A stretch of DNA of 64,000 nt from Methylocystis heyeri (lineage in GTDB: Bacteria; Pseudomonadota; Alphaproteobacteria; Rhizobiales; Beijerinckiaceae): positions 3,100,001-3,164,000 of the forward strand of contig NZ_CP046052.1 in assembly GCF_004802635.2 (NCBI RefSeq), in the 5' to 3' direction. Position 1 is the first letter of the stretch. Each line of letters starts with the position of its first letter. The translations under genes and the position numbers were made by a program. Positions 41,301 to 56,814 of this stretch are shown piece by piece. The notes under the pieces are model-generated. The model was not told the origin of the DNA. It saw only the letters and a program-made list of their open reading frames with translations, and did no database searches.

Positions 41301-44206
41301 CCCAGCGCGAAATCGCTGGCCTGCAGAGTGGATATCCAATTGCGGCGCATGAAGCGCAAGGTCATCTCCAGGCCTTCGACGGCCTCGCCCTTGCCGTTGA
41401 CCGCGATCAGCTCCGGCGTCACGACGCCGGGCCGCTCGACATAGCGCGGCGTCTTGACCCCGAGCACGAAGGGAGGCAACGCAATGACGTTCTGCACATT
41501 GCGGACTTCTATGCCGTCGTCGCCCGTCACCGTCGCCTCGATCGAATATCTGCGCGGCTGGGCGGTCGGTTCGATCGTCGCGTCGAAGGTCATGCGCGCG
41601 GCGCCGCCCGCGTCGGTGCGCTGGTCGCGCTCCAGCACGGCGCTGGATTTGAACTTGCCTTCGCCCGAGAAACGGGCGTCGGTCGAGAACAAAAACCCCT
41701 CGCGATTGGGCGGCGTGAAAATATGGGGAAATTGCGCGGCGCGCCATTTCACCGGACGGTCCGCGGCGAGGCCGCCGGCAAAATATCTCGCGAGCAGATC
41801 GACGTCGAAAGTTCCGTCCAGAGCCGCCGTCTGAGGCGCGTTGAGCACGACCTCGAAGGTCGGCAGGCGATAGGCTTCCTTCTTGAAGGAGAAACGTCCG
41901 CAGGAAATGTCCTGGTCGGGCCCGGCGTCCGCGGTCTCTTCGTCGTCGGAAGGCTTTTCGCTTTCTTCCGTTTTGGCGTCTTTGGCTTTGGGCTTGGCTT
42001 TCGGCGCGTCGGGCTCGAAACGCACGGCGTAATCGCCCGTCGCCGGGGTCTGCGCGTCGAATTTGTGATAGAAGCCGCCGCTCGAATCGAGCTTCACCGG
42101 AATCCGCCATTCCTGATTGCTCGGACCCGAGACGACGAGGGTTCCGCCTTTCTTGGGAAGGCTCAGGGAGCCGCCGCGGTAGATCCGCACGAAGCCCTTG
42201 ATATGAGCGGCCTCTTCGGGACGGTAGATCGGCCGCTCCGAAAACAGATGGCACAGCGTCCGCGGCTTTTCCGCCCGCGGCGCATCGGCCTCGCCGGTCC
42301 AGGAGAGCCAGGGCGACTCCGGCCTGGACCAGTTTTCCTTGGCGTATTCGGACGGCGCGCTGTCGGGATCGATGACGAGGACGTCGAGACCCTTGCTGAC
42401 GACCACCCGCCGCAGCTCGCCTGCGCCGCGGGCGCCGGGGCTCCATGAGAAGAACCCTGAATCGTCGGTGATGCCGCTCGCGAGCGAAACGAATTTGTCG
42501 TCCTTCACGCCCTCGATGCGGATCTGGGCGCCGCCGACCGGCTGCGCCGCGCTGAGCGAGGTGACGGCGAAGCGCACCCGCGTCGGCTCCTCGACGGCGG
42601 AAAGGGTCAGGTCGGTGACCTGCACGCGAATCCAGCGGCGCACGTCCTTGTCCACGGCGCGCAGGCCGACGAGATAGGCCCCCGGCTGATCCCGCCCGGC
42701 GATGCGCGCGAAATCCTCGCGCAGATCGAGCCCGAATTTGGCGTCGCCGCCATTGCGGCGGATCGGCAGATCGGCCAGCCGCGAGACGGCGGGCGAGCCC
42801 AGGGTCTTGATCCTCTCCTTGATTGCCTCGGCTTCGATATTGCCGCTCTCCGACCATCGCTTGGGCTCGGCGCCCGGCAAAGGCGGCGCCTGATCGTCCT
42901 GCGTCTCCACGCCCTGCGCCGGGAAGGGCCAGAAGTCGCGCGCCAGCGGATCTATCGCGTGGATGCGAATGTCGGCATGGTCGTAGCCGCGCCCGCGCAA
43001 GGGCAGGAGCTGAGGGCCGAAGCGTTCGACTACGCCATATCCGGCGTCCCATTGGATCGCCGGCACGTCGCGCGTAAAGGCGAAACGCTGGACGAAAGCG
43101 GGACCGAGCGCGCGGCCGCGCTCGTCATGCAGCGCGCCGGGCGCCAAAGCGAGCTCATAGACCTTGTCGGAGAGAAATCTTCCGCTGATCTTCAGATGCG
43201 CGCGATCGGCTTCGACCGCGAGATCGTCTACCGGCGGCGTGAAGCGCAGGGCGTTGCGCGCGCGCTGGATGTCGAGTTCTTCCGGCGGCGCCGAAAAGCT
43301 CAGCGTGATCCGCCTTCTCGCCGCAGGGGCATAATCTGGCGCTTTTACGGCGCTGTCTTCGTCCTCGCCGCGGGAAACAGGCTCGGGCGCGTTGGCGGCG
43401 CAGCGCAGCACATCCGGATTTTTGTCGTCGCTCCAGCCGCGGCCGCAAGTCGCCTCGGTCACGGCGAAGGGCGGCGCCGTGCGCAAGCGCAATTCATAGG
43501 TCTCGTCGTCGAGCCCCGGCTCGTCCGAGAGCTTGAGGCGCAGGACGGCGACCCGTCCATCGGCGACGGGTTCGTGGAAACGCAGGACATAGCTTTGCTG
43601 CTTGTCGCGTTCGGCGCGCTCGAGCGGGCGGATGTCGTAGGCTGAAGGACTGAGGAGCTGTCCCCCCTGCGGCGAAACCCCGGGAGAGGGCCGCAGCTCG
43701 ATCGTCAGCAGCCGCGCCAGGGAGGCGGCGTCGACCGGCTGCGCGAAGACGAGAGCGATCTGCGTCAGCTCGGCCGGCGGATCGGCGTCGGCCGTGGGCT
43801 GCGTCGAGACAGGCGTCGGCAACAGGGCGACGAGCCTGGTTTCGGCGCCGCCCGATTTCACGCTGTAGCGGGCGAGCGGCGTCCAGGGTTCGGCCGGCCG
43901 GAATTGCAGGGCGCGCGGCCCGAGCCAGCGCCATTCGCCCGGCGGCGGCGGCGTAATCGTCGCGAATTTGTCGGGCGCGTCCTCCGGGCCGCCCGCCTTG
44001 GGGCCGGCGTCGGAAGAAAAGAAGATCGTCAGCGGGTCATAGCCGCGCAAGAATCTGTCGGGAGCGAGTCTGGCGCCGTCGGAGCGCTGAACGCGGTCGA
44101 ACACCGGCGGCGTTTCGGCCCGCAAGGGTTGCGCGAAGCCGAGCGCCGCGCAGAAGGCGAGCAGCAGGATCTTTCTCATCGCGGAGCCCGTCGGTTTCTG
44201 GGTCAT
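38342..44206 (-). CDS. yfhM: Bacterial alpha-2-macroglobulin
   Basis: A 1954-residue periplasmic protein with a signal peptide (MRKILLLAFCAALGFAQPLRA) and no lipobox. It is therefore probably soluble, unlike the E. coli lipoprotein. Macroglobulin MG domains fill the first ~1200 residues. The thioester motif GCTEQ is at residues 1478-1482 in an alpha/alpha thioester domain, followed by a C-terminal receptor-like beta domain. It traps attacking proteases by thioester linkage and works with PBP1C in envelope defence. ATG 44206 overlaps the stop of the upstream giant gene by 4 bases; ATG 44179 is an alternative start. Confidence 0.92.
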   Translation of the reverse strand: MTQKPTGSAMRKILLLAFCAALGFAQPLRAETPPVFDRVQRSDGARLAPDRFLRGYDPLTIFFSSDAGPKAGGPEDAPDKFATITPPPPGEWRWLGPRALQFRPAEPWTPLARYSVKSGGAETRLVALLPTPVSTQPTADADPPAELTQIALVFAQPVDAASLARLLTIELRPSPGVSPQGGQLLSPSAYDIRPLERAERDKQQSYVLRFHEPVADGRVAVLRLKLSDEPGLDDETYELRLRTAPPFAVTEATCGRGWSDDKNPDVLRCAANAPEPVSRGEDEDSAVKAPDYAPAARRRITLSFSAPPEELDIQRARNALRFTPPVDDLAVEADRAHLKISGRFLSDKVYELALAPGALHDERGRALGPAFVQRFAFTRDVPAIQWDAGYGVVERFGPQLLPLRGRGYDHADIRIHAIDPLARDFWPFPAQGVETQDDQAPPLPGAEPKRWSESGNIEAEAIKERIKTLGSPAVSRLADLPIRRNGGDAKFGLDLREDFARIAGRDQPGAYLVGLRAVDKDVRRWIRVQVTDLTLSAVEEPTRVRFAVTSLSAAQPVGGAQIRIEGVKDDKFVSLASGITDDSGFFSWSPGARGAGELRRVVVSKGLDVLVIDPDSAPSEYAKENWSRPESPWLSWTGEADAPRAEKPRTLCHLFSERPIYRPEEAAHIKGFVRIYRGGSLSLPKKGGTLVVSGPSNQEWRIPVKLDSSGGFYHKFDAQTPATGDYAVRFEPDAPKAKPKAKDAKTEESEKPSDDEETADAGPDQDISCGRFSFKKEAYRLPTFEVVLNAPQTAALDGTFDVDLLARYFAGGLAADRPVKWRAAQFPHIFTPPNREGFLFSTDARFSGEGKFKSSAVLERDQRTDAGGAARMTFDATIEPTAQPRRYSIEATVTGDDGIEVRNVQNVIALPPFVLGVKTPRYVERPGVVTPELIAVNGKGEAVEGLEMTLRFMRRNWISTLQASDFALGAAKYVTQAQDDIIFERKIASAKEAQKIELQAKEAGVYIVQLEAYDRLKRRQQVSVDFFVGGDTPVTFSRPPAASATVTSDKDRYAPGEVATLIVQSPFQTARALAIIEQPNGLYDYSFVDIANGFGRLAVPLKKEQTPKLAVHFLIMRGRLKDSPPQPAANFDQGKPVTIAATKWIEVTPVKNIVNVKLEHPSQARPGDEVEVTLRLSDDAGKPLAGEATFWMVDQAVLSLAKERPLDPLPDFIVARETKMAARDTRNMAFGVIPLEEIAGGDGDLQEWGAENNISVRKNFTPVPIYLPSVKVGADGAAKIKVRLPDTLTVFKLRAKAVSGPDRFGAAGGEMFIRQALVAQPALPRFARAGDSFDVGLVARIVEGPGGSGKAAIAANGLKLQGEASRKIEWAQNKPVRVDLRAEVPQDAQQEAKLRFRIERDADHAKDAVEVDLAVKPDREPTRRYEIVEIAPGETKTVAALGEAARPGTLSRTAVVAADPALVKLIAGLNALVAYPYGCTEQRLSLARAGLALKSFAPILAAAGLEDRLSANVKSTAQQIDQAVDHDGLVAFWPRARGNVSLTAWSYAFLTEADRAGEPVDKTLMDRLANILKLSLRSDYPRLLDGQEMRERAEALAALAEGGRLDDSYVAEFVRRADFLPNASVAQLAAAAASLPKVDPRVVSSLAETMWGRVKFAMRNGAQVYVGQAADSGAPIILPSETRSLAEILRAAALAAPSDPRAAVLREALLRLGEGDGWGETRADSAAITALAQYWRRPANPIKVTFASGEASKEAIIEANQPVARHVDASAAPLAIANSSNAPLIALIETSYVPQQPGALAEPVSEGFAITRGSWRIKSGAAPEKLEAQNAAIRASVGDVIEEIAEVVNPQDRTHVAISLPLAAGYEPLNPNIATAPAEAQPSSAPTLAPTWVSFGDDRVFYAYDFLPKGTYRFAFRLKAQTAGVYTEPPALVETMYRKGVRGSSAGARIEISK

Positions 44207-47200
44207 TTCCTGCCGCCTTTTTTCATGCCGGCTTTTTCGAGAAGCGCCGCCACCACCTCGTCCGGAGGCGCGGCCGGAGGGGGCGACAGGCCGAGGATCG
44301 CCGCGCGGATCGTGGTCGCGCCGGCGTCGGAGGGAGCGCGGGCCTCCAGGAACCAGCGTCCCGGCGGGAGCTTTTTCATCATCGCCACCCCTTCGGCGAC
44401 GGTTTTGCCCTCGGCGTCGAGCAACCGCGCGAAGATGCGGTCGGGCTCGGCGCGCAGGCCGACGCCGATGTCCCCGTCCCGTTTGGTCACGAAGGTGAAG
44501 AGGGCGCTCGAGCCCGGCGAAACGGCGACCGGATCGTTGACGCCCTCATGCGCCTCGATCGCCGGCTGAGCCGAGATTTCGAGCGTCCCCGAAAGCGCCC
44601 CGCCGTCATGGGCGGCGGCGATTTCGAGCGTCGTCTCGCCCGCGGCGGCATAATGATGCAGGTCCACGCCCGACGCGAAGGCGAAAGTCTCGCGCCTGCC
44701 ATTCTGGGTGAGCGCCGCAAGAGCGGGCGCGCCGCCGGTGGCGCTGATGAGCGCGGGCGTGTCGAGCTTGACGGAAAAGCGCATGGCGGCGCCTTCCAGC
44801 CTGACCCGCTGGGGCGGCGTCAGCGCGACCGTCTGCGCTTGCGGCCAGGGCGTCTTGCCGTCACGTTCGATCCAGGCGACGACAAGTCCGGGAGAAAAGG
44901 CGAGCACGGCCTCCCCGGGTCCGTCGAGCGCAATGTCGCGCCCGCGCGCGATGCGCCCGCTCTGCGAAACGAAAGTCGCCTCCGCGCCCAGGACCACGAG
45001 ACGATCGCCGGGCTTGGCCTCCAGCAAGAGCGCGCGTTCGCCGGCCGCCGGGAAAAAGCGGCGCAGCAGAGCGCCCGGCGCGAGCTTGGTCGTTTCGCCG
45101 GTGGCGCGGGCGATGCGCGCCGGCGCCGGCTCGGCGGAAAGATTGGCGAGCCAGACCCGGTCCGCGCCCGCCGCCACGCGCGAGACAGCCGCGCCGTCGC
45201 CGAAGACGCCGGTCCCGCCGGCGAAAGCGGCGAGGCCGGGGCCGAGATCGAGGGCGAGCGCTGTTTGCGATTTTTCGAGATCGACCGGCTGCACGCTCAT
45301 CGGCGGGATGACGCCCGCATAGAGCGCGCCGGCGGAGACGGGCTCGCGCGTATCGAGATCGATGGCGCGCAAGGCCGCGCGCATGGACGCGCCAGGGTCG
45401 GCGTTCCAGAGCAGCGGCTCCTTGCCGGCGGCAAAGGCCAGCGCCGCGCCCTTTGCGACGCCCATCCCCGCGCCGGCGTCCAGCGCGGGCTGCGCTAGGG
45501 AAGACCGCGCCAGCCAGAGCCGGGTTTTATTCTTCGGGGGAGCCAGCGCCGGCAGTCGTACGCGCTCGCCTTCCTGAAGATCGAGCGCGACTTCCTCGCC
45601 GCGCCAGGCGAAGGCGTCGATCCGGAGAGGCGCCTTGCAGTCGCCGCGCGCGACCAGCCACAGCGACTGGGATTGCGGCGCCAGCGGCCCTCTCTCCCGC
45701 CAGCGCAGCGCTTCGCCCGGCGTCGAGCCGGCCGCGAATTTGCCGGCGAAGGCGGCCGTGACCAGCGCTGCGTCGGGGGTCGCGACCTTGGCTGCGCAAA
45801 GGGAGGTTCCTTCGACCGGCTCCATAGCGACCTCGCCGGGGGCCCGTCCGCGCCCTTCGACGACGCGGGCCACGACGTCGATTTGCGCCTGGGCGTCCCC
45901 CAGCGGCCACAGCAGCACGCGGAGCTCGGCTTTGTCCCTGCCGGCGGGCCAGGCGACCGCCGGAGCGCGTCCGCGGTCCATGCCGATCAAGCGCCACGCG
46001 TCGCCCTCGCGGCGCTCCACCGCGAGCGCCACGTCGGCCTCCGAGCGCGCGGCGACCAGCGCAAGCGATCCTTCGGGCGTCGGGGCGAGACGCAGCGCAT
46101 GGGCGCTCGCGCCGGAAAGGCGCGTTCCGCCCTTCGCCTCCAGCGCGCCTTCGTCTTTTTCGGCGGGCAGAGCGAGGCGGATTTCGACGCCGGAGGGCTC
46201 GGTCTCGCCGTCGGCGCCTTCGCCGTCCTGCGCCTCGGACTGATCCGAGGATTCTTCGCTGCTCGCCTCCTCCTGCGCGGACGATCCCAGGCCTGCGCCG
46301 AGCTCCTCCAGCTCGAGCCGATAGGCTCCGGCGGGGAGACGCCGCGACAGCGCGAGGTTCCAGTCGTCGGGTCGGGGCTCCAGGCGCTCGACCGCTTCGC
46401 CCGACGCGGTCTTCAGGACGCCGATGGTCTCGATGTCGCCGAAGCCGGAAATATCGACGATCCCGTCCGCAGCAAGCGAAAATTCGAGCTGCGCCGGGAG
46501 GTCGACGCGGCGCGTGGCGCCCGGCTGCAATTGTTTGGAAGACAGGGAAATCTCATAATCGAGCCGGTCGTCATGGGCGAGACTGCGCGCTTCGACCCGG
46601 TAATCCCCGGCGCCGAGCTTGCCCTTGAAAGGCCGGTCCCCGGCGGTCCTGCCGACGCTTTCGTCGCCTTTGAAAATCTCGCCGATCATGCCTTCGCCGA
46701 TCGACAGCTCGACGTCGGCGTCGCCGTGGAGCGCGAAACGCCAGACATCGGGCGCGCGGGGGGCGTCTTTTCCCTGCGGTTCGCGCCATTGCAGCTTTTG
46801 CGCCGCCTCGAAAGGAAGGGCGTGAGGCCCATGACCCTCGAGCGCCGGCGGCGCCGGGACCGGCGCGAGCCGCGCCACCACCCGCCCCTCGACATCTTCC
46901 GGGCTGACGACGAGACGATAGGCGCCGGGGTCGAAATGCTGCGTGAGGGTCTTCAGCGTTCCCGGCGCGGCGAGAGGCCAGCCTTCCGCGTCTTCGAGAC
47001 GGGCGCGCCAATCATGCGCGAGGCCGAGAAGATCGAGCCGGTATTCGCCTGCCCGCGTGATGTCGAATGGTATCGCCGCGCCCTCGCCGGGCCGCAGCGT
47101 CGCGCGCGCCACGCCTTCATCGACGATCTTCGCCGCCGCCGCGAGGGCCGCCGGCGCAACGCTGAGGCCGAGATGGCCGGCCGACTCCTCCGCCGTCACC

Positions 47201-49314
47201 GCCGCGCGGTAGGCGCCGGCCCGCAGGAAGGTGGTTACGAGGCCGTTGGCGCCGGGGCCGTTGGCGTCGCCTTGTCCGAGATTGGGCGAGACCACGGCCC
47301 CGATCCGCAGCGCCGTCTTCATGCGGCCCAGAGTCTCCACCCGATAAAGCCCGCCCTGCGCGACCTCGAACCGCGCTCGCCGGGTCTCGTCCCGCGCGAG
47401 ATCGAAAAAGGCTGGACGCCCGACCGCGAAAGCGAGCGGCTTGCCCTTCTGCGTCGTCTCCGCTTCGTTTTTTTCCTCCGGCGCGGCCTCTGGAACGAAA
47501 ACGAGGCCGATGGCGCGGGAGGCCGTCGGGGCCGCGATCTTCAAGGTCGCAAGACGCTGCTCGGCTTCAATTTTTTCGTCGAGGAGCGTCGTCCCGATCA
47601 CGGCGTTCCCGTCGTCGCGCGCGACGATGCGGCCTTTCTGCGGGATTCGCACCGGCAAAGCGATCTCCCGCCCCGCGTCCTGCCGCAGGGCGAGCGGGGC
47701 TTTGGCGAGTTCCGCCGGCAGCGCGACCACGCGGGGGCCCGTCAGCAATTGCGGCGCGACATTGGCGAGGATCAGATAGGCGCCGTCCCCTTCGAGGTTT
47801 TGGGCGCCGAAGGATATTTGCGCGCGGGCCGGAGCTGGGGCGGGCGGCGGCGCGCCGAGGCCCGGCGGGCCGAGCTGCACGTCGACGACGCCCGCGGCGC
47901 CTTCCTTGGGCGTGAGTTTCAGAAAGTAGAAGCCGGCCTGAAGATCATAACGGGTCTTATCCTTGCCGTCGGCCGTGGGGGCGAGCTGGCCGAGCGCGGG
48001 TTCGATGGCGGCGTCGAGCGCGACGCCTTTGGCCTCGATCGCGACAGGCCCGTCCTGCGCCGCCTCGAAAAGGATCGAAGTCGGCCCGAACAGATTGAAC
48101 TTGCCGCGCCAGGGGGCGCCCGCGCCGATGCGGGGCGCGTCCGAAGCGATGACGCGGGCCTTGCCGTCGGTGTCGAGGCGGGCGAACAAAGCGGTCGCCG
48201 GCGCCTCGTCGCCGCCTTCGCCGGCGAGGTCGAGGAAGACCAGATGCGGTCCCGCGCCGCGGAAAGTTTCGTAATTCGATTGGCGCAGGGCGCTGAGCGC
48301 GAAGGCCTGGCCTTCATAGCCCGTCACTTCCAGCTGCGCGGCGGTCTTGCCGTCCCCGCCGAGGCGCAGAACGACCGCGGGTTGACGGCTTTTCTTGTCG
48401 ATCGCCGCCATTTGCCGCGAAGCGCCCCGCCTCGCCTCGATCGCGGCCGACGCCTGCTGCGGCAGATCGAGCCGGAAGGAATCATAGCTCGCCGGCGCCT
48501 CGAAACGCGCGATCCCGAAAGCGTCGATCACGCCTTGCGCCGCTCCCGCGGCGAGCAAGGCCGGAGTATCGAGCCGGATCAGGAAAGGCTGGGCTTTGGC
48601 GCCGTCGCCCCAGGTCAGCGGCTCGCCTCCATAGGCGGTGACGACATAGCGCCCCGGCGCCAGCGCGCCCTGAAGCCGCAGCCTGGTCATGAAGCGACCG
48701 GGCCTCGTCTCTGCGGCCGCACGCTCGAAAGCGAGGTCGACCAGCTCGCCTTCGGCGTTCCAGACCCGCAGATCCTGCAGGGCGCGGCCGATCGCTTCGA
48801 TCGCTACGGGGCCCTCTGCGGCGGTCTCGAGCGCATAGGAGCGCCGCTGGAGGTCGCCGAGCTCGCCGCTCAAAACCTTGCCGGCGGCCAGAGTCGGGGC
48901 GCCCGGCTCGGCTTCGACGAAGGGCAGCGCGGAAAGCGCGGTTTTTCCCGAGGCGTTTTTCCGCGCTTTGACGCGCAGCTTGTAGACGCCCTTGTCCAGC
49001 AGCGCGTCGATGCGGCTGTCGCGGACGCCGTCCGAATCCGAGGAGTCGAGCGGGCCGGCGATCATGTCGACGAGCTCGATGCGCGCGCCGGACGCGTTTT
49101 TGGCGCGGATCGAATAACGGCCGGGAGTGGGAATGGAGATCAGACTGTCGCCGTCCTGCCCGCCGGCCAATTCGCGCGGCGCAATGTCGACCGCTTTCGG
49201 CGCGGCTGTCCCGGCCGGAGGTTTCGCGGCCTGGTCGCGGGCCGCGCCCAGCGCGCCGGAAAAGGAAAAAAACGCAATCGCCGCCGCACAGGCGCTAAAA
49301 ACAGGACGGCGCAT
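44203..49314 (-). CDS. Giant exported multi-domain protein, partner of alpha-2-macroglobulin
   Basis: A 1703-residue protein with a signal peptide (MRRPVFSACAAAIAFFSFSG). It consists of many repeated beta-sandwich units with patterns such as PGRYVVTAYGG, AGFYFLKLTPKEGA, GAYRLVVSPEDVEG and GAYRLELEELGAG, resembling PPC-type or MG-like domains. An acidic Ser/Glu-rich linker lies near residues 1005-1050. A C-terminal MKKGGRK ends it. No enzyme motif is seen. It is translationally coupled to the macroglobulin gene by ATGA, so the two are probably made together. I infer a periplasmic scaffold or bait/inhibitor. ATG 49314 has GGGGGG upstream. Confidence 0.7.
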   Translation of the reverse strand: MRRPVFSACAAAIAFFSFSGALGAARDQAAKPPAGTAAPKAVDIAPRELAGGQDGDSLISIPTPGRYSIRAKNASGARIELVDMIAGPLDSSDSDGVRDSRIDALLDKGVYKLRVKARKNASGKTALSALPFVEAEPGAPTLAAGKVLSGELGDLQRRSYALETAAEGPVAIEAIGRALQDLRVWNAEGELVDLAFERAAAETRPGRFMTRLRLQGALAPGRYVVTAYGGEPLTWGDGAKAQPFLIRLDTPALLAAGAAQGVIDAFGIARFEAPASYDSFRLDLPQQASAAIEARRGASRQMAAIDKKSRQPAVVLRLGGDGKTAAQLEVTGYEGQAFALSALRQSNYETFRGAGPHLVFLDLAGEGGDEAPATALFARLDTDGKARVIASDAPRIGAGAPWRGKFNLFGPTSILFEAAQDGPVAIEAKGVALDAAIEPALGQLAPTADGKDKTRYDLQAGFYFLKLTPKEGAAGVVDVQLGPPGLGAPPPAPAPARAQISFGAQNLEGDGAYLILANVAPQLLTGPRVVALPAELAKAPLALRQDAGREIALPVRIPQKGRIVARDDGNAVIGTTLLDEKIEAEQRLATLKIAAPTASRAIGLVFVPEAAPEEKNEAETTQKGKPLAFAVGRPAFFDLARDETRRARFEVAQGGLYRVETLGRMKTALRIGAVVSPNLGQGDANGPGANGLVTTFLRAGAYRAAVTAEESAGHLGLSVAPAALAAAAKIVDEGVARATLRPGEGAAIPFDITRAGEYRLDLLGLAHDWRARLEDAEGWPLAAPGTLKTLTQHFDPGAYRLVVSPEDVEGRVVARLAPVPAPPALEGHGPHALPFEAAQKLQWREPQGKDAPRAPDVWRFALHGDADVELSIGEGMIGEIFKGDESVGRTAGDRPFKGKLGAGDYRVEARSLAHDDRLDYEISLSSKQLQPGATRRVDLPAQLEFSLAADGIVDISGFGDIETIGVLKTASGEAVERLEPRPDDWNLALSRRLPAGAYRLELEELGAGLGSSAQEEASSEESSDQSEAQDGEGADGETEPSGVEIRLALPAEKDEGALEAKGGTRLSGASAHALRLAPTPEGSLALVAARSEADVALAVERREGDAWRLIGMDRGRAPAVAWPAGRDKAELRVLLWPLGDAQAQIDVVARVVEGRGRAPGEVAMEPVEGTSLCAAKVATPDAALVTAAFAGKFAAGSTPGEALRWRERGPLAPQSQSLWLVARGDCKAPLRIDAFAWRGEEVALDLQEGERVRLPALAPPKNKTRLWLARSSLAQPALDAGAGMGVAKGAALAFAAGKEPLLWNADPGASMRAALRAIDLDTREPVSAGALYAGVIPPMSVQPVDLEKSQTALALDLGPGLAAFAGGTGVFGDGAAVSRVAAGADRVWLANLSAEPAPARIARATGETTKLAPGALLRRFFPAAGERALLLEAKPGDRLVVLGAEATFVSQSGRIARGRDIALDGPGEAVLAFSPGLVVAWIERDGKTPWPQAQTVALTPPQRVRLEGAAMRFSVKLDTPALISATGGAPALAALTQNGRRETFAFASGVDLHHYAAAGETTLEIAAAHDGGALSGTLEISAQPAIEAHEGVNDPVAVSPGSSALFTFVTKRDGDIGVGLRAEPDRIFARLLDAEGKTVAEGVAMMKKLPPGRWFLEARAPSDAGATTIRAAILGLSPPPAAPPDEVVAALLEKAGMKKGGRK

Positions 49315-49571
49315 CGAGCCCCCCAAAGTCGCCAAATAAAAAGAGCGGTTTGCGTCCCGCGCCCGGGGCAAGCTTAATCTGAAATCGGCGCGATGAAAGC
49401 TCTATTCGTCGGATCCGAGCGGTTTTCCTTCTCAAAAATCGGCGCCGCTCGCGCGTTGTGCTGGACGACAAGCTCGACCGCATTACCTAACCGTTATCGC
49501 CGCAGCCGCGGTTCTTTCGCCGGGACGCCGCGACGCCGAAATTAAACATGGAATTTCAATAGGAGGGGACG

Positions 49572-50313: not shown

Positions 50314-50880
50314 ATGCAAAGGCATTTCGAAATTTTCGTCGCGGAAGCGCCTGACGTGCTGGCGGTTCATTGGGGATGGCCGATCGCGCTCGGGCTGATC
50401 GTGGCCGCGCTCGGTTTCGCGTGCCTCTGGCGCGCTCGGGCGGCGACCCTGATCTATGTGAGTTTTCTGGGGGCGCTGCTGCTCGTGAGCGCCCTCGCGG
50501 TGCTGCTCTTCGCCATTCTGCTCGCCGGCTACTGGACCGATTTCTTCATTCACGTGCTGTGGGCGGCCATGCTGGCGGTGGTCGGGCTCATCCTCGTCAC
50601 GCGCCCGGCCATCAGCGCCGAAGCGATGACGCTGGTGATCGGGTTCTATCTCGTCACGACAGGCGTCCTATCGATCGGCTTCGCGCTTTCCGCCCATATC
50701 GAGGGGCAATGGGCCTATGCGCTCCAGGGCCTCGTCAGCGCGCTGCTCGGAGGAATGCTGCTCGCGGGCTGGCCGCTGTCCGGAGTGTGGGCGATCGGAC
50801 TGTTCATCGGGGTCGATCTGATCCTCAAGGGCGCCGCGATCGTCGCACTCGGATTGCAGCTTCGGGCGATTTCGGAATGA
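50314..50880 (+). CDS. HdeD/DUF308-family membrane protein
   Basis: A 188-residue inner-membrane protein with six predicted helices in three pairs, e.g. WPIALGLIVAALGFACLW, LIYVSFLGALLLVSALAVL and LVIGFYLVTTGVLSIGFAL. This is the pattern of HdeD (DUF308), linked to acid or envelope stress in enterobacteria. GAGGGGG precedes ATG 50314. A terminator-like hairpin follows at 50933-50960. Confidence 0.82.
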   Translation: MQRHFEIFVAEAPDVLAVHWGWPIALGLIVAALGFACLWRARAATLIYVSFLGALLLVSALAVLLFAILLAGYWTDFFIHVLWAAMLAVVGLILVTRPAISAEAMTLVIGFYLVTTGVLSIGFALSAHIEGQWAYALQGLVSALLGGMLLAGWPLSGVWAIGLFIGVDLILKGAAIVALGLQLRAISE

Positions 50881-50960: not shown

Positions 50961-51163
50961 TACCGATCCGTAACCATGCGCCGCGAGCCGCAACGCATTT
51001 TCGCCGCGCCGGTTCGCCGGTCTGAAGCCATCGCGCCCCGCCGGGGCGGACCGCTCACCGCGTCGCGCAATCTCCCCCGCAGAGGCTTTCGAGCACAAAG
51101 TTTCAAGAATTTTAAAGCTTTGCACGGTCCTATGGCAGACATGCAAATATGAGAGGGACGCAG

Positions 51164-52105
51164 GTGAAAACCTTGTTCTGGCTCCAGACCGGGGCTTGCG
51201 GCGGCGATTCACTCGCGATCCTCAGCGCCGAGGCGCCCAGCTTCGAGCAACTGCTTCTTTCTTACGGGATCGAGCTTCTCTGGCATCCTTCGCTCTCGCA
51301 TGCGCCGGCCAAACGCTTCGACGCGCTGATCGAAGACATCGCATCGGGCTCGCAGAAACTGGACATTCTGTGCGTCGAAGGCAGCATCATCACCGCGCCG
51401 CGCGGCACCGGGCTGTTCGACAGCTACAAGGGCCGCGCGCGGATGGATATCGCTCGCAGCCTCGCGGAGCGCGCCGAATTCGTCGTCGCCATGGGAACCT
51501 GCGCCAGTTTCGGCGGAGTCCACGCGGCCAGCCCCAACCCCGGCGATTGCACGGGCATGCAGTTCAATCGGGCCAATCCGGGGGGCCTGCTGCCCGCCGG
51601 CTGGCGCTCGCGATCCGGGGCGCCCGTCATCAATATCGCCGGCTGTCCGGCGCATCCCCACGCCATGACGCAGACCCTGGCGGCGCTCGCCGAGGACATG
51701 CCGATCGCTCTCGATCCGCTCAATCGTCCGAGCGCTTTCTTCAGCATGCTGGTGCATCAGGGCTGCACGCGCAGCGAGTACCACGAATACGACATCGAGG
51801 ACGCGCAGCTCGGCGGCCATGCCTGCCTGTTCTTCAATCTGGGATGTCAGGGACCGCTGACGCAGGCGGTGTGCAACGACGATCTTTGGAACGGCGTAAG
51901 CAGCAAGACCAGGGCGGGCGTGCCCTGCTTCGGCTGCACGGCGCCCAACTTCCCGCGCGAGGCCGATCTCTTTACCACCGCGAAGATCGGCGACGTCCCG
52001 CTTCGTCTCCCCATGGGGGTCGAGCGAGCCCGCTACATGGCCTACAAGAACCTCGCCCGCGCCGCCGCGCCCCAGCGCGTGAAGGACAAGGAGATGGACG
52101 TCTGA
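51164..52105 (+). CDS. [NiFe] hydrogenase small subunit, cytosolic group 2 (HupU/HoxB-like)
   Basis: A 313-residue iron-sulphur subunit without Tat signal, so cytosolic. It relays electrons from the NiFe site through three clusters. The proximal site reads C12-G-G-D15 instead of CxxC, with further ligands in GTCASFGG and AGCPAHPHA. Distal and medial clusters use HQGCTRSEY, NLGCQG, AVCNDD and VPCFGCTAPNFP. WHPSL, CVEGSIITAPRGTG and the overall length match the H2-sensor HupU/HoxB type. GTG 51164 is preferred: AGAGGGA lies 5 bases upstream, while ATG 51149 has no such site. It is the first gene of the operon. Confidence 0.87.
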   Translation: MKTLFWLQTGACGGDSLAILSAEAPSFEQLLLSYGIELLWHPSLSHAPAKRFDALIEDIASGSQKLDILCVEGSIITAPRGTGLFDSYKGRARMDIARSLAERAEFVVAMGTCASFGGVHAASPNPGDCTGMQFNRANPGGLLPAGWRSRSGAPVINIAGCPAHPHAMTQTLAALAEDMPIALDPLNRPSAFFSMLVHQGCTRSEYHEYDIEDAQLGGHACLFFNLGCQGPLTQAVCNDDLWNGVSSKTRAGVPCFGCTAPNFPREADLFTTAKIGDVPLRLPMGVERARYMAYKNLARAAAPQRVKDKEMDV

Positions 52106-52106
52106 C

Positions 52107-53636
52107 ATGGCGCGCCTCGAACTCAACGTCAGCCTCAATCGGGTCGAGGGCGATCTCGAAATCGCCGTCGCGCTGGAGGACGGCGTCGTGGCGGAAGCCC
52201 GCACGATCGGCACGATGTATCGCGGCTTCGAGCAGATCATGATCGGCCGCGCCCCGCGCGACTCGCTGGTGATCACGCCGCGCGTCTGCGGCATTTGCGG
52301 CACAGCGCATCTTTATTCCGCCGTCCTGGCGCTCGAGAACGCCTGGCGCCTGTCGCCGCCGCCCAACGCCACGCGCATCCGCAATCTGTGCCTGATGGCG
52401 GAAGGCCTCCAGAACGACCTGCGGCAGACCTTTCTGTTCTTCTCGCCCGACTTCTGCACTTCGCGCTACGCCGGCGAGCCCTGGTTCGACGAAATGACGG
52501 CGATGTTCGAGCCGTTCCGCGGCGCGATCTATCTCGAAACTCTGGCCATGACGCGGCGGCTGGTCGAGATCGTGGCTCATTTCGGCGGACAATGGCCGCA
52601 TTCCAGCTATATGGCTCCCGGCGGCGTCACCCTGCCGGCCGATTTGCGGCGCATCTCGGCGTGCCGCGCCGTGCTGCAGGAGGCCCAGCGCTGGTACGAG
52701 CAGCGCATCGTCGGCGCGCCGCTCGACCGCTGGCTGGCGCTGGACAGGGCGGAAGATTACCTCGCCTGGCTGGACGAGCCCCTCCATGCGGCGAGCGCTC
52801 TCGGCGCCCTCACCCGCTGCGCTCGTGCGCTCGGACTGCATCGCGCCGCCGCCGGGACCGGACATATGCTGAGCTACGGCTCCTGGCGCGATCCGCTGGA
52901 ATCCTCGCCCGGAGCCGGCGCGTCTTTGCTTCGCTCCGGTTTTTACGACGGCGACGCCGGATCGGTCGCCCAGCTCGACCAGGAGCTGATCAACGAGCAT
53001 GTGCGCCATTCCTGGTTCCGGCATTACGACGGCGGCAGACATCCCTGGCGCGGAGAAACCGTCCCGAACTACCAGCCGGGCGGCGATCGCTACAGCTGGG
53101 CCAAGGCGCCCCGCTATGGCGATAAGGCCGTCCAGACCGGGCCGCTCGCCGAACTGCTGATCGGCGGCGACGCCCTGATCGCGTCGCTCCACGCAATGGA
53201 GGGCGGCGGCGCCTGGCTGCGTCAGTTCGCGCGGGTGAGGCGCATCGCCTATGAGTTCTTTTACGCCCAGCGCATGCTCGACGAACTCGCGGCCGAGCCG
53301 CATGGCGAGCATTTCACCCCGCCCGCCGGGAGCAGCGAGGCCGACGGCGACGGATTCGGCCTCGTCATGGCGGCGCGCGGCGCGCTCGGCCACTGGATCG
53401 CGATTCGGAACGGCGTCATCGAGCGTTACCAGATCATTACGCCGACAGCCTGGAACGCCTCGCCGCGCGACAGCGCGGGCCTGCCCGGCCATTGGGAGCA
53501 GAGCCTCGTCGGCGTCACGGTGAAGGATCCCGACGATCCCATCGAAATCGGCCATATCATCCGTTCTCACGATCCCTGCCTGGTTTGCACGGTCCATATG
53601 CTGGACACCGGCGGCAAGGTCCATTTTGGCGCATAA
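52107..53636 (+). CDS. [NiFe] hydrogenase large subunit, group 2 (HupV/HoxC-like)
   Basis: A 509-residue catalytic subunit. Motif L1 is RVCGICGTAH (Cys61, Cys64) and L2 is DPCLVCTVH (Cys491, Cys494), so all four NiFe-binding cysteines are present. LNRVEGDLEI near the N-terminus resembles sensor-type subunits. After His497 there is a 12-residue tail (MLDTGGKVHFGA), which would be removed by a maturation endopeptidase such as the one encoded next. It oxidises or senses H2 in the cytosol. It begins one base after the small subunit stop. Confidence 0.9.
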   Translation: MARLELNVSLNRVEGDLEIAVALEDGVVAEARTIGTMYRGFEQIMIGRAPRDSLVITPRVCGICGTAHLYSAVLALENAWRLSPPPNATRIRNLCLMAEGLQNDLRQTFLFFSPDFCTSRYAGEPWFDEMTAMFEPFRGAIYLETLAMTRRLVEIVAHFGGQWPHSSYMAPGGVTLPADLRRISACRAVLQEAQRWYEQRIVGAPLDRWLALDRAEDYLAWLDEPLHAASALGALTRCARALGLHRAAAGTGHMLSYGSWRDPLESSPGAGASLLRSGFYDGDAGSVAQLDQELINEHVRHSWFRHYDGGRHPWRGETVPNYQPGGDRYSWAKAPRYGDKAVQTGPLAELLIGGDALIASLHAMEGGGAWLRQFARVRRIAYEFFYAQRMLDELAAEPHGEHFTPPAGSSEADGDGFGLVMAARGALGHWIAIRNGVIERYQIITPTAWNASPRDSAGLPGHWEQSLVGVTVKDPDDPIEIGHIIRSHDPCLVCTVHMLDTGGKVHFGA

Positions 53637-53648
53637 GGGAACCGCTTC

Positions 53649-54113
53649 GTGATCGAGCGCCATATCATCTGCTTCGGCAACCCGCTGCACGGCGACGACG
53701 GCTTCGGCCCGGCGGTCTACCAACGGCTGGCGCCGCACGCGCGGCCCGCCGGCCTGCGCCTCACGGAGGCCGGCGCGCCGGGACCGGCTGCGCTGGCGCT
53801 GTTCCAGGACTGCGCCGAAATCGTCATCGTCGATGCGCTGGCGCCCGCCGGAACTCCGGGGCGGATCGGACGACCCTCTCCGGCCGCCGTCATGCAGGAA
53901 GCGACGCCCGCCGGGCATGGCGTCGGACTGGGCTATGTCCTGCGCGCCCTCGCGGCGCTTTCCGAGCGCCCGCCGGCCATCGAGATCATCGGAGCGGAGG
54001 CCGGGACCGTCGCGCCGTTTCGCCCGGGGCTCTCGGAGCCGGTGGCGCGCGCCGCCGATGAAGTTGCGGCGCTGCTCCTTCGTTCCTATTTCGACTCCGA
54101 ACGCCATGTCTGA
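53649..54113 (+). CDS. Hydrogenase maturation endopeptidase (HyaD/HycI family)
   Basis: A 154-residue protease starting at GTG 53649, with the family opening IICFGNPLHGDDGFGPAVY and the second metal site IVIVDAL. It cuts the C-terminal tail of the large subunit after nickel insertion. It is encoded directly after that subunit and overlaps the next gene by 8 bases. The general Hyp assembly genes are not in the window and must be elsewhere. Confidence 0.88.
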   Translation: MIERHIICFGNPLHGDDGFGPAVYQRLAPHARPAGLRLTEAGAPGPAALALFQDCAEIVIVDALAPAGTPGRIGRPSPAAVMQEATPAGHGVGLGYVLRALAALSERPPAIEIIGAEAGTVAPFRPGLSEPVARAADEVAALLLRSYFDSERHV

Positions 54114-56814
54114 TCCGGAACTCGCGCAAGAAATCATCCGCCTGCGCGCGGAGGTGGAGACGCTTCGTCTCGCCAACGCGGCCATACAAAGGCAATTGGG
54201 CGTCGACGCCGGCGAGGCGGACAGGATGCTGCGCACGATGGAGCTGCAGGCCGAGGCCCTGCAGGAAGCCAATCAGCGCCAGACCAGCCAGGCCAATTTC
54301 ATCCAGCGGGTGATGGACACCTCCTCCGCTCTGATGATCGTTCTCGGGCCGGAAGGTTTCATACGCCAGGTCAACCGCCGCTTCGGCGTCGCCCTGGGCG
54401 AGCCGGAAGCGCCGGCGGCCCGGCGCGTCCTGGACGAATGGCTGCCGCCGGAAGAAAAAGCCCGGCTGGAGCTGTCGCTCGGCGCCCTGCCGTGGCCGGT
54501 CTATTCGCCGCTGTTCGAACTGGCGCGCAGCGCCGGCTCCTACTGCGCGGAACACCGCCTGCTGGGCAGGGACGGGCGATATCGCGTCTATTGGCTCGAA
54601 GCCAGCGTCCAGCACGATCCCCAGGGCAAGGAGGAAGGCGCCGTCGTCTGCGCGACGGACATAACCGCGATCAAGAACCAGCGCGACGCCCTCATCGAGA
54701 GCGAAAGGCAACTCAAGGAGGCTCAGCGCATCGCCCAGATCGGTCGCTGGGAGCTCGACCCGACCACCGGCGAGGTCGTCCAATGGTCGGACGAGTTGCT
54801 GCAAATCTGCGAACTCGGGCGCCCCCCGGCGCGAACCGAGGATTTTTTGGCCATCGTCCATCCGAACGACCGCCAGCAAATCGCCGAGGCTTTCAGCGCC
54901 GCGATCGCCGGTCATCGCCTTTTTTCGTGCAACTGCCGACTGTTGCTGGCCAACGGCGGAACGAAATGCATCCAATTGCGCGGGCTGATCCATTACGACG
55001 AGGGCGGGAAGCCGTTGCGCGCGACCGGAACCCTCCAGGACGTCACCGCCCAGCGTCTGGCGGACGAGCAGCTCGGCCTCGCCGCCAGCGTGTTCGACAG
55101 CAGCCTCAACGGCGTGATCATCACCGACTCCGAAACCCGGATCATCAAGGCCAACCCCGCCTTCAGCCGCATTCTCGGCTATGAGCCGGAGGAAGTCGTC
55201 GGAAAAAGGACCAGCATCTTCAAGTCGAAGCGCCACGATGCGTCATTCTACGAGCAGATATGGGCGAGGCTGATCCGGGAAGGCGAGTGGCAGGGCGAAA
55301 TCTGGGACCGCCGCAAGGACGGCAAGGTCGTCCCGCTGTGGCAGAATATCTCGGCCGTGCGCGACGAGCACGGCAAGGTGAAGAACTATATCGGGGTTTT
55401 CTACGACCTCAGCGAGCAGAAGCGCTCGGCCGCGCATATCCATCACCTCGCCTATTACGACACGCTGACCGACCTGCCCAACCGACAGCTTTTCAACGAC
55501 CGCTGCGCCCAGGCCATCAAAATGTCGCAGCGCACCGGCCGCAAGCTCTGCCTGCTTTTTCTCGATCTCGACCGCTTCAAATACATCAACGACAGCCTGG
55601 GACACCCGGTCGGAGACGAGCTTTTGCGGGCTGTCGCGGCGCGGCTGACGCAGAACCTGCGCCAGAGCGACACGATCGCGCGTCTCGGGGGCGACGAATT
55701 CATCGTGCTGCTGCAGAACGTCCACGGCCCCGAGGACGCCGAGCGAGTCGCGCAGAAAATCCTGGCGGCGCTTTCAAGGCCGTTCGTCATCCAGGGCCAT
55801 CGGCTCGAGGTTCGCACTTCCATCGGCGTCAGCAGCTATCCCGGCGACGGCGAAGACGCCGCCACGCTGATCAAGAACGCCGACCTCGCCATGTATCAGG
55901 CCAAGGAGGAAGGACGCGGCAAGTTCATGTTCTACACGGCGCAGCTGACGGATCGGGCCCAGGAACGGCTGTTTCTGGAAGGCGAGCTGTGCAAGGCGAT
56001 GGACAAGGACGAACTGTTCCTTGAATACCAGCCGCAGTTCGAGCTCGCCAACGGCCGGCTTCTCGGCTCGGAGGCGCTGATGCGCTGGCGCCACGCCGAG
56101 CGCGGCGACATCCCGCCCGCCAGTTTCATCGCCATCGCAGAGGAGACCGGCCTGATCCTGCGCCTCGGCGAATGGGCCCTGCGGACCGCCTGCGGCCAGG
56201 CGATGGAATGGGCGCGCAAGGGGTGCGGCCTGCGCCGCATCGCCGTGAACATATCCGGCGTCCAGATCGAGCGCTCGGATATCGTCGGCATGGTCGGGGA
56301 TGTGCTGGCCGAGACCGGCTTGCCGCCCGAGTTTCTCGAGCTGGAGATCACCGAGACCTATGTCATGCGCCAGGCGCAGCAGAACATACAGGTTCTCGAC
56401 GCCCTCCGCGCTTTCGGCCTTTCCCTGGCGATCGACGATTTCGGCACGGGTCAGTCGTCCCTCGCCTATCTCAAGCGTCTGCCCGTGAACAAGCTGAAGA
56501 TCGACCGCTCCTTCGTCGCGGACCTTCCGAGCGGAGAGAATGAAGCCGCGATCGCCCGCGCCATCGTGGCGCTCGGCCACAGCCTGCATCTGAATGTTCT
56601 CGCGGAAGGGATCGAGACGCCCGCTCAGGCCCAATGCCTCGCGGAAATGGGCTGCGAGGAAGCCCAGGGCTTCCTGTTCAGCCGCCCGCTCGCCGCCTCG
56701 GCCATGGAGGACATGCTTCTGAGCCATGCTTCACGCGCCATGCCGGCCAAGCTGACGCAGAGAACGGAGTTCGGGAACGAAAAAGACAATGGCGGCCTTC
56801 TTCGCCGGGCATGA
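54106..56814 (+). CDS. PAS-PAS-PAS-GGDEF-EAL c-di-GMP signalling protein
   Basis: A 902-residue cytosolic protein. An N-terminal coiled coil (residues ~1-65) is followed by three PAS domains (~66-190, ~195-310, ~315-430), a diguanylate cyclase with intact GGDEF at 528-532, an RxxD inhibition site five residues before it (RQSD), and an EAL phosphodiesterase with E656-A-L, LEITET and DDFGTG. Both enzyme activities look possible. There is no membrane helix. It overlaps the hydrogenase protease gene by 8 bases, so it is part of that operon. I infer that its PAS region receives the H2 signal, as HoxJ kinase does in the known H2 sensor. Confidence 0.92.
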   Translation: MSDPELAQEIIRLRAEVETLRLANAAIQRQLGVDAGEADRMLRTMELQAEALQEANQRQTSQANFIQRVMDTSSALMIVLGPEGFIRQVNRRFGVALGEPEAPAARRVLDEWLPPEEKARLELSLGALPWPVYSPLFELARSAGSYCAEHRLLGRDGRYRVYWLEASVQHDPQGKEEGAVVCATDITAIKNQRDALIESERQLKEAQRIAQIGRWELDPTTGEVVQWSDELLQICELGRPPARTEDFLAIVHPNDRQQIAEAFSAAIAGHRLFSCNCRLLLANGGTKCIQLRGLIHYDEGGKPLRATGTLQDVTAQRLADEQLGLAASVFDSSLNGVIITDSETRIIKANPAFSRILGYEPEEVVGKRTSIFKSKRHDASFYEQIWARLIREGEWQGEIWDRRKDGKVVPLWQNISAVRDEHGKVKNYIGVFYDLSEQKRSAAHIHHLAYYDTLTDLPNRQLFNDRCAQAIKMSQRTGRKLCLLFLDLDRFKYINDSLGHPVGDELLRAVAARLTQNLRQSDTIARLGGDEFIVLLQNVHGPEDAERVAQKILAALSRPFVIQGHRLEVRTSIGVSSYPGDGEDAATLIKNADLAMYQAKEEGRGKFMFYTAQLTDRAQERLFLEGELCKAMDKDELFLEYQPQFELANGRLLGSEALMRWRHAERGDIPPASFIAIAEETGLILRLGEWALRTACGQAMEWARKGCGLRRIAVNISGVQIERSDIVGMVGDVLAETGLPPEFLELEITETYVMRQAQQNIQVLDALRAFGLSLAIDDFGTGQSSLAYLKRLPVNKLKIDRSFVADLPSGENEAAIARAIVALGHSLHLNVLAEGIETPAQAQCLAEMGCEEAQGFLFSRPLAASAMEDMLLSHASRAMPAKLTQRTEFGNEKDNGGLLRRA

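Follow-up and report, generated by a model that had tools for sequence, protein, structure and literature searches.

The window analysed here is a 64,000-nucleotide stretch of the Methylocystis heyeri genome. Within it, four genes lie head to tail on the plus strand: a [NiFe]-hydrogenase small subunit, the large subunit, a maturation protease and a protein with three PAS domains followed by GGDEF and EAL domains (Table 1). The first three genes are spaced by 1 nt and 12 nt and the last two overlap by 8 nt, in agreement with the original prediction of four tightly packed genes with gaps or overlaps of 1 to 12 bases. For the small subunit, an in-frame GTG at 51164 (codon 6) is as possible a start as the ATG at 51149. 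No gene for a membrane or cytochrome partner was found in the operon. Compared with the congener G030, third codon positions were the richest in differences in all four genes (positions 1/2/3: small subunit 40/25/111, large subunit 67/40/158, protease 26/17/61, PAS-GGDEF-EAL 159/123/369). The unit is patchily distributed: of 37 genomes sampled from the genus, four have it, and its chromosomal surroundings differ between congeners. Loose sigma-54 promoter matches in the window numbered 52 versus 61 expected; one site with a single mismatch lies at 50843-50857, inside the upstream ORF, and a promoter of this type was not adopted for the operon.

Table 1. Features of the hydrogenase operon, in window positions
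Feature	Position	Strand	Remarks
[NiFe]-hydrogenase small subunit	51149..52105	+	ATG start; Pfam PF01058 (Oxidored_q6) 4.5e-26, PF14720 (NiFe_hyd_SSU_C) 3.4e-23; signal peptide absent
Asp20 codon, CGGD	51206..51208	+	Aligns with the second Cys of the proximal-cluster CxxC
[NiFe]-hydrogenase large subunit	52107..53636	+	RVCGIC...H and DPCLVCTVH motifs; Pfam PF00374 (NiFeSe_Hases) 1.2e-83
Large-subunit C-terminal tail	53598..53633	+	12 residues after DPCLVCTVH; probably cleaved in maturation
HycI/HupD-type hydrogenase maturation protease	53649..54113	+	GTG start; Pfam PF01750 5.9e-11, TIGR00072 6.6e-27
Helix-PAS-PAS-PAS-GGDEF-EAL protein	54106..56814	+	902 aa; overlaps protease gene by 8 nt
N-terminal input module	54106..54672	+	Long helix, residues 4-72; PAS fold, about 72-189
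Second PAS domain (PAS_3)	54781..55032	+	Pfam
Third PAS domain	55090..55407	+	Pfam
GGDEF domain	55450..55920	+	Pfam 5.1e-52; RxxD and GGDEF intact
EAL domain	55987..56688	+	Pfam 1.7e-70; EAL, NxS, ExTE, DDFGTG and QG motifs intact

In the large-subunit tree, a check suggested with the original prediction, the window enzyme falls in a separate clade (support 99/96), apart from the 2b sensors HupUV/HoxBC and from 2a Huc. Groups 2b (15 rows) and 2a (5 rows) are each monophyletic at 100/100 and exclude it. The 2b rows were drawn from 13 of 51 HupV-like loci, the C. necator HoxBC and the enzyme of the own genome. Six peptide patterns found 32 clade members, which is a lower bound because such patterns can miss divergent ones. 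Loci L039 and L032 share a genome and were merged, as was L040, which is G011's second contig; the split or frameshifted G011, L064, L066 and L118 were kept outside the large-subunit trees and the ligand alignment and counted by motif only. A Methylobacter enzyme shares the clade of the window enzyme and was the only group-2-level match in all four Methylobacter genomes searched; in the available text of the source, Methylobacter is reported with hydrogenases 1d, 1e, 2c and 3d. Through this enzyme the clade can be equated, indirectly, with HydDB group 2c, a subclass that the original prediction had named as a possibility. The HydDB entry, in its available part, labels the group 'Diguanylate cyclase-linked (putative)', states that it 'may' sense H2 through c-di-GMP and enters its role as undetermined. 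A link to a gene with a diguanylate cyclase domain is found here, the PAS-GGDEF-EAL gene overlapping that of the protease. The Methylocystis hydrogenase thus adds a member to a known hydrogenase class and is no HupUV variant. No second 2c-like large subunit was found in 385 genomes of the taxonomic class. HypD is encoded in the own genome, and the 2c unit and HupUV coexist there, because a separate HupUV set is also encoded, accompanied by a PAS kinase and a response regulator of the sigma-54 type, which we take to be HupT and HupR.

The subunits carry several traits that separate the clade from group 2b. All 32 members have CxxD/E in place of the proximal CxxC; in the alignment, all 28 clade rows have Asp or Glu at this position, all 15 group 2b rows have Cys and all five group 2a rows have Asn. 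The window small subunit has Asp20 and Lys253, versus Cys at both positions in all 15 of the 2b rows. A cluster with three Cys and one Asp has a precedent in the actinobacterial-type hydrogenase of R. eutropha. By the usual assignment of each Cys to its cluster, the medial cluster has three-Cys ligation in the clade and four-Cys ligation in 2b. The small-subunit C-terminus is about 15 residues shorter in 2c than in 2b (25/28 rows measured), and the best solved relative of the window small subunit is that of Huc (7utd_B, 1.4e-83). HoxC position 110, which we take to lie in the gas channel, holds Phe (15) or Met (13) in the 28 clade rows, Phe in all 15 of 2b and Leu or Ile in 2a; HoxC position 62 does not discriminate, its Ile being common to 2a too. 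A large-subunit C-terminal tail and an adjacent maturation protease are present in 32/32 clade members, and the tail is absent from 53/53 2b loci, which end at His. HoxC is described, in the available text, as ending at the last ligand His without proteolytic maturation (PMC10073562).

Membership of HupUV/HoxBC was rejected, with the tree, CxxD/E, the three-Cys medial cluster, the tail and the protease all contrary to it. The original prediction of cytosolic sensor-type subunits stands in that they belong to group 2 and lack a signal peptide, but the likeness to HupUV/HoxBC does not. What 2c does share with 2b HoxBC/HupUV and HoxJ/HupT is the small-large pair, a PAS-containing partner and Phe (or Met) at HoxC 110; besides the subunit and protease traits given above, it differs in its outputs, which are GGDEF-EAL proteins or other kinases. 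Group 2a Huc, the cyanobacterial/mycobacterial type, resembles 2c in its non-Cys proximal residue, its tail and a protease gene in the operon (two of two annotated cases), and a Rieske-motif protein lies nearby in three of five 2a cases. It differs in its separate clade, in having Asn versus the Asp/Glu of 2c, and in having Gln for His at the distal cluster.

Partners were counted at the 30 loci with readable downstream sequence, leaving out L042 and L046, where the contig ends just after the protease. At 29 of these a signalling protein comes next, namely a GGDEF-EAL protein at 16 and a histidine kinase at 13; L059 has no partner within the 2.9 kb remaining on its contig. With kinases at 13/30 loci, the clade departs from the HydDB description in not being cyclase-linked throughout. 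The window itself fits that description as a group-2 hydrogenase adjoining a PAS-GGDEF-EAL gene. Within the 16 GGDEF-EAL partners, GGDEF is kept in 16, RxxD in 12 and EAL in 15; RxxD is replaced by RQGA in the congeners G002 and G030 and by SITD and SEND in two Neptuniibacter, and L045 has EVL in place of EAL. Pfam and motifs confirm that the window partner has GGDEF, RxxD (RQSD) and EAL intact, as first claimed, and the catalytic motifs of this putative bifunctional enzyme are thus complete. Among 53 HupUV (2b) loci, a GGDEF protein occurs anywhere in the fetched flanks in only two, both on the opposite strand. The pairing of hydrogenase and GGDEF-EAL protein is more than chance, because the hydrogenase-protease pair recurs at 32/32 loci and GGDEF-EAL at 16/30, versus 2/53 among 2b. 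The order hydrogenase-protease-partner is the same across several phyla. Mapped on the hydrogenase tree, output requires at least two changes and Rieske presence at least three (the outputs of L050 and L063 were assigned manually; L042, L046 and L059 were left out); the module tree, in which the SAR324 kinase sits on a long branch, does not settle the number of output changes.

The first 189 residues of the partner form a conserved module of a long helix and a PAS fold. It is present in 28 of 29 partners, with GGDEF-EAL in 16 and with histidine kinases in 12; the planctomycete kinase L063 has no module detectable by profile search. A profile with rows from 10 partners recovers the partner in 18 of the 19 remaining loci. 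Of 61 related genomes, the own one among them, exactly the four with this hydrogenase have a module match above 250 bits, two of these four having supplied profile rows; the other 57 have none. Eight other clade genomes, of which four supplied rows, each have a single module match above 200 bits, adjacent to the hydrogenase, with the next match at 45 bits or less. No second module at the >250-bit level was found in 385 genomes of the class, and at E <= 1e-8 the module was not matched in the three 2a-bearing relatives, a further difference from Huc. The window partner has the output architecture and motifs of generic PAS-GGDEF-EAL proteins (DibA, DosP type), from which the hydrogenase-linked helix-PAS module distinguishes it. 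The predicted structure of 54106-54672 has PAS topology, with a fold like that of PAS domains that bind cofactors, for example in DosP and NifL; across partners, the module was found to lack any invariant Cys or His for cofactor ligation. A Rieske domain occurs at 7 of 30 loci, fused in six and as a separate gene in one, in the lineages Methylobacter, Neptuniibacter and SAR324; a search of the Methylocystis operon for a Rieske motif found none. Judged from sequence, the conserved input module, its two output types and the Rieske addition at these loci appear to be new here.

A distant relationship between the module and the input region of HupT/HoxJ is possible. Apart from the 2c partner itself, the module matches the HupT-like kinase best in the own genome (43.7 bits; next 24.3), and matches at E <= 1e-8 beyond the 2c partner occur in 12/12 HupV genomes (own included) and 2/49 others. 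Profile comparison of the module with the HupT/HoxJ region gave 108.6, versus 76.6 and 53.8 for other PAS domains of the same proteins. HupT-level scores alone are no proof of a shared partner, because the unrelated G323 kinase (HAMP-PAS, domains assigned by eye) scores as high, at 50.6 bits with the module profile, and has no match to hydrogenase queries within 20 kb. In G103, G229 and G326, whose HupV-like match is ended by TGA, there was no module match at 1e-12 among the best eight candidates per genome. The predicted link of the hydrogenase to a c-di-GMP protein is upheld, by way of a PAS-containing module that may be distant kin of the HupT/HoxJ input.

We consider it probable that the group 2c unit passes H2 turnover through the helix-PAS module to c-di-GMP. 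Sequence establishes the operon, the enzyme motifs, the pairing throughout the clade and the conserved module; the turnover itself, physical docking, an electron or conformational signal and the sign of that signal are what we infer. The cytoplasmic heterodimer, matured by the co-encoded protease, would oxidise H2 and dock at the partner's N-terminal helix-PAS module, which would read H2 turnover as electron arrival and/or conformational change; two further PAS domains would relay the signal to GGDEF-EAL, altering c-di-GMP synthesis or breakdown. We guess, with only a slight preference, that regulation acts mainly on the EAL phosphodiesterase, given that the product-inhibition site RxxD of the cyclase is lost in 4/16 partners. 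The tail, protease, three-Cys medial cluster and Huc relative count against this reading, as they point to working uptake enzymes and not to 2b sensors. They are equally what would be expected if electrons went to metabolism, with the GGDEF-EAL protein merely co-transcribed or reading metabolic state, and the nearest solved structure is indeed that of an uptake hydrogenase. We nevertheless regard this as unlikely: the operon lacks a membrane or cytochrome partner, HoxC 110 is Phe or Met, as in sensors or near, strong module matches are limited to the 4/61 relatives with the hydrogenase, and the input module is kept while outputs vary by lineage.

It is possible, though we lean against it, that the hydrogenase is an electron source and no conformational sensor, its small-subunit clusters feeding a redox cofactor of the partner. 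This would be the Rieske [2Fe-2S] in the three lineages named above, and a PAS-bound or unrecognised cofactor in Methylocystis. Such a route is suggested by the fused and separate Rieske domains, by the DosP- and NifL-like module fold and by ligands for a three-cluster chain, provided that Asp/Glu20 serves as one; however, the Methylocystis operon has no Rieske motif that was found, the module has no invariant Cys/His, and likeness to a flavin or heme PAS fold is silent on binding. PAS domains are generally known as common redox and O2 sensors, and the proximal Asp/Glu is unusual, so that O2 or cellular redox state might be sensed via the hydrogenase clusters in place of H2. This seems quite improbable: the [NiFe] active-site motifs, the maturation protease and HypD are all kept, and H2 chemistry is presumably used because keeping them would otherwise be costly. 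A non-functional or chance neighbourhood, to which the presence in 4/37 genus genomes and the differing congener surroundings might point, is hardly credible given the third-position excess in all four genes and the same gene order across several phyla. Returning to the reading of an H2-to-c-di-GMP unit, we tentatively extend it, with confidence just short of even. Group 2c may be a plug-in H2-input device of hydrogenase, own protease and helix-PAS adaptor that feeds c-di-GMP or histidine-kinase phosphorelays; in some cases a Rieske electron wire fused before the adaptor would let H2 electrons directly set the signalling enzyme. On this view the adaptor and the HupT/HoxJ input region would share an old ancestry.

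No experimental study of group 2c was among the literature matches listed, and reports on Azotobacter and Dechloromonas concern other hydrogenases in their available text. A table of a neighbourhood survey, seen in part, includes an EAL/GGDEF/PAS cluster, 50 genes in size, in the vicinity of its [NiFe]-hydrogenases (PMC12727194). The way in which a hydrogenase reports H2 to a signalling protein is described, in the accessible part of one paper, as still under investigation even for HoxBC-HoxJ (PMC6978683). One module with varied outputs, sometimes with a Rieske domain in the same polypeptide, offers natural variants with which to map the docking surface and probe an electron signal. Methanotrophs encounter H2 and make use of it, and if the proposed link is true this gas would be a candidate cue for behaviour controlled by c-di-GMP.

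The window occupies C1:3100001-3164000 of the 4.73 Mb M. heyeri genome, and the close packing of four genes claimed in the original prediction was borne out, with intergenic spacers of 1 nt and 12 nt followed by an 8-nt overlap (see table). The last gene encodes a PAS-PAS-PAS-GGDEF-EAL protein of 902 residues. Relative to G030, another genome carrying the operon, substitutions fell mostly at third codon positions in each of the four genes, which at the sequence level is the pattern of purifying selection.

Coordinates of the operon and of other loci described in the text
Feature	Location	Strand	Content
Four-gene cluster	window 51149-56814	+	small subunit, large subunit, HycI/HupD-type protease, PAS-PAS-PAS-GGDEF-EAL protein
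Two adjoining very large ORFs	window 38342-49371	-	about 1,950 and 1,722 aa
Separate M. heyeri cluster (L029, L030)	G000:C1:210137-222000		HypD, sigma-54 response regulator, PAS kinase, HupUV, full-length group-1-like large subunit
Further M. heyeri large subunit	G000:C1:4042229-4043461		NiFeSe_Hases family, 98.9 bits; maturation-protease-like ORF alongside (by eye)
Second ORF just upstream of a Methylobacter operon	L048:753-4584	opposite	1277 residues; PAS, GGDEF and EAL matches
Ideonella dechloratans operon (L119)	NZ_CP088082.1 461691-475187		on a 709-kb plasmid; c-type cytochrome gene adjoining

The hydrogenase was classified with a large-subunit tree of 49 sequences, in which 28 members of its near group, the window enzyme included, formed a single clade with support of 99/96. 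Group 2b, the HupUV/HoxBC sensors (15 rows), and group 2a, Huc (5 rows), were each a single clade at 100/100, and the order among the three clades (77/35) was not settled by the tree. According to the available text of a Methylobacter paper, members of that genus carry varying combinations of groups 1d, 1e, 2c and 3d. All four Methylobacter genomes searched held one group-2-level match each, namely the near-group enzyme, together with a full-length group-1-like enzyme in three of the four and weaker family members. Because 2c is reported in Methylobacter and the sole group-2-level match there belongs to the near group, we infer that the near-group clade corresponds to 2c of HydDB. The class of the window unit is thus already known; its HydDB entry, as far as available, reads 'Diguanylate cyclase-linked (putative)' and lists the role as undetermined. 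Elsewhere in the M. heyeri genome, the HupUV of the separate cluster is 2b and its large subunit terminates at the His, and the further large subunit is possibly of the bidirectional type.

Of 286 stretches matched in a pattern scan over 84,980 species genomes, 274 encoded a relative. We kept the best 80 of these; 29 showed 46-82% identity and the other 51, at ≤40%, were HupV-like. These 29, the window, G002 and the I. dechloratans plasmid, on which the fourth gene is annotated as a bifunctional diguanylate cyclase/phosphodiesterase, make up a near group of 32 genomes, which include several orders of Pseudomonadota, SAR324, a planctomycete and an acidobacterium. The closest named relative among the best 80 of 274 was Methylocystis sp. 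Sn-Cys (L039; large subunit 82% identical). Three of 36 other congeneric genomes encode a large subunit at 82-83% identity with the same protease and PAS-GGDEF-EAL genes alongside, and in the congener G011 the operon is divided between two contigs. By eye, the window operon is flanked by DUF308/HdeD-like and SMR-transporter genes, and that of G002 and G030 (L031, L032) has an adenylosuccinate-synthetase-like gene alongside; differing surroundings among Methylocystis congeners suggest transfer or movement. At nine Vibrionaceae loci (L050, L051, L055-L058, L064, L066, L118), HypE-, HupE/UreJ- and HypF-like genes were seen by eye upstream of the 2c operon, which at some is then followed by a second response-regulator-kinase gene. 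Hydrogenase, protease or kinase frames are split in the draft assemblies of L050, L064, L066 and L118, through assembly error or decay.

The subunits of 2c differ from those of 2b in several respects. A tail of 12-16 residues follows the last ligand His of the large subunit in all 32 collected 2c members, whereas HoxBC/HupUV end at this His at 53/53 loci; in the available part of PMC10073562, HoxC is described as lacking such a tail and as undergoing no proteolysis. A protease gene accompanies 32/32 of the 2c units, in contrast to protease matches at 2/53 of the 2b loci, about 5 kb off. Small-subunit position 20, the Cys of a CxxC, is Asp/Glu in 28/28 aligned 2c rows (and, by motif, in 4 further members), Cys in 15/15 of 2b and Asn in 5/5 of 2a, and an additional Cys at window position 253 is found in 15/15 of 2b but 0/28 of 2c. 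Of the 2c rows, 27/28 retain the distal His and three Cys, and the remaining row is gapped there; Cys residues were assigned to clusters by the usual scheme. HoxC positions 62 and 110 presumably line the gas channel. Position 62 is Ile in 28/28 of 2c, 15/15 of 2b and 5/5 of 2a, and is therefore non-discriminating, whereas position 110 is Phe (15/28) or Met (13/28) in 2c, Phe in 15/15 of 2b, and Leu or Ile in 2a. The nearest solved structures are of the uptake enzyme Huc. Tail, protease, ligand residues and position 110 together make 2c, as read from sequence, a blend: its maturation and wiring are of the uptake type, its gas channel in part of the sensor type. The HupUV analogy drawn originally thus fails for the subunits (tail, protease, ligands and clade) but may hold for the input region of the partner.

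This input module comprises the first 189 residues (helix and PAS fold) of the partner. Among 61 genomes (own and relatives), it scored >250 bits in just the four with a 2c hydrogenase. Each of eight further 2c genomes, four of which contributed rows to the profile, gave a single match >200 bits (203-254) adjoining the hydrogenase, with runners-up at ≤45 bits. Of 385 genomes sampled from the class, just two passed 1e-12, namely the own genome and G323, the latter with an unrelated membrane kinase (50.6 bits) scoring level with HupT-type matches; no second large subunit of 2c level besides that of the window was found in this sample, and three of its HupV-bearing genomes gave no module match at 1e-12. 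Within the own genome, the protein scoring highest after the partner itself (43.7 bits) was the PAS kinase clustered with HupUV and the sigma-54 response regulator. Among the 61 genomes, module matches occurred in 12/12 with HupV (own included), eight of them ≤5 kb from it, and in 2/49 of the remainder, which lack HupV. At 2b loci, the first module profile matched the kinase in 43/53 at E up to 10, 24 of these at <0.01. In profile comparison the module was closer to the HupT/HoxJ-type input region than to PAS2 and PAS3 of the same proteins. The score of the G323 kinase and the three HupV-bearing genomes with no match at 1e-12 speak against a relationship between the module and the HupT/HoxJ input region; overall the data are supportive of one, though not proof.

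As a mechanism, we propose that the [NiFe] site would oxidise H2 and thereby alter the state of the heterodimer or hand on electrons, that the helix-PAS module would sense either change, and that the GGDEF-EAL end would then alter c-di-GMP. Among 16 GGDEF-EAL partners, GGDEF and DDFGxG are intact in 16/16 and EAL in 15/16 (EVL in one), RxxD is absent from 4/16, and some further EAL-domain motifs in a few partners escaped the motif patterns. Beyond the partner, GGDEF was matched 19 times in the M. heyeri genome and PilZ 4 times, which makes a c-di-GMP network likely there. In 4/4 Methylobacter and 2/2 Neptuniibacter, the partner has a CxH...CxxH Rieske domain at its N-terminus, whereas in SAR324 the Rieske protein has its own gene, located between those for the protease and the kinase (called with Pfam PF00355 for L047, L048 and L061, by motif for the other four). 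Electron-transfer signalling is therefore a serious option.

The novel part is the comparative anatomy of the clade: ligand, tail and protease traits throughout 2c, a conserved input module whose outputs are exchanged between partners, and variants bearing Rieske domains.
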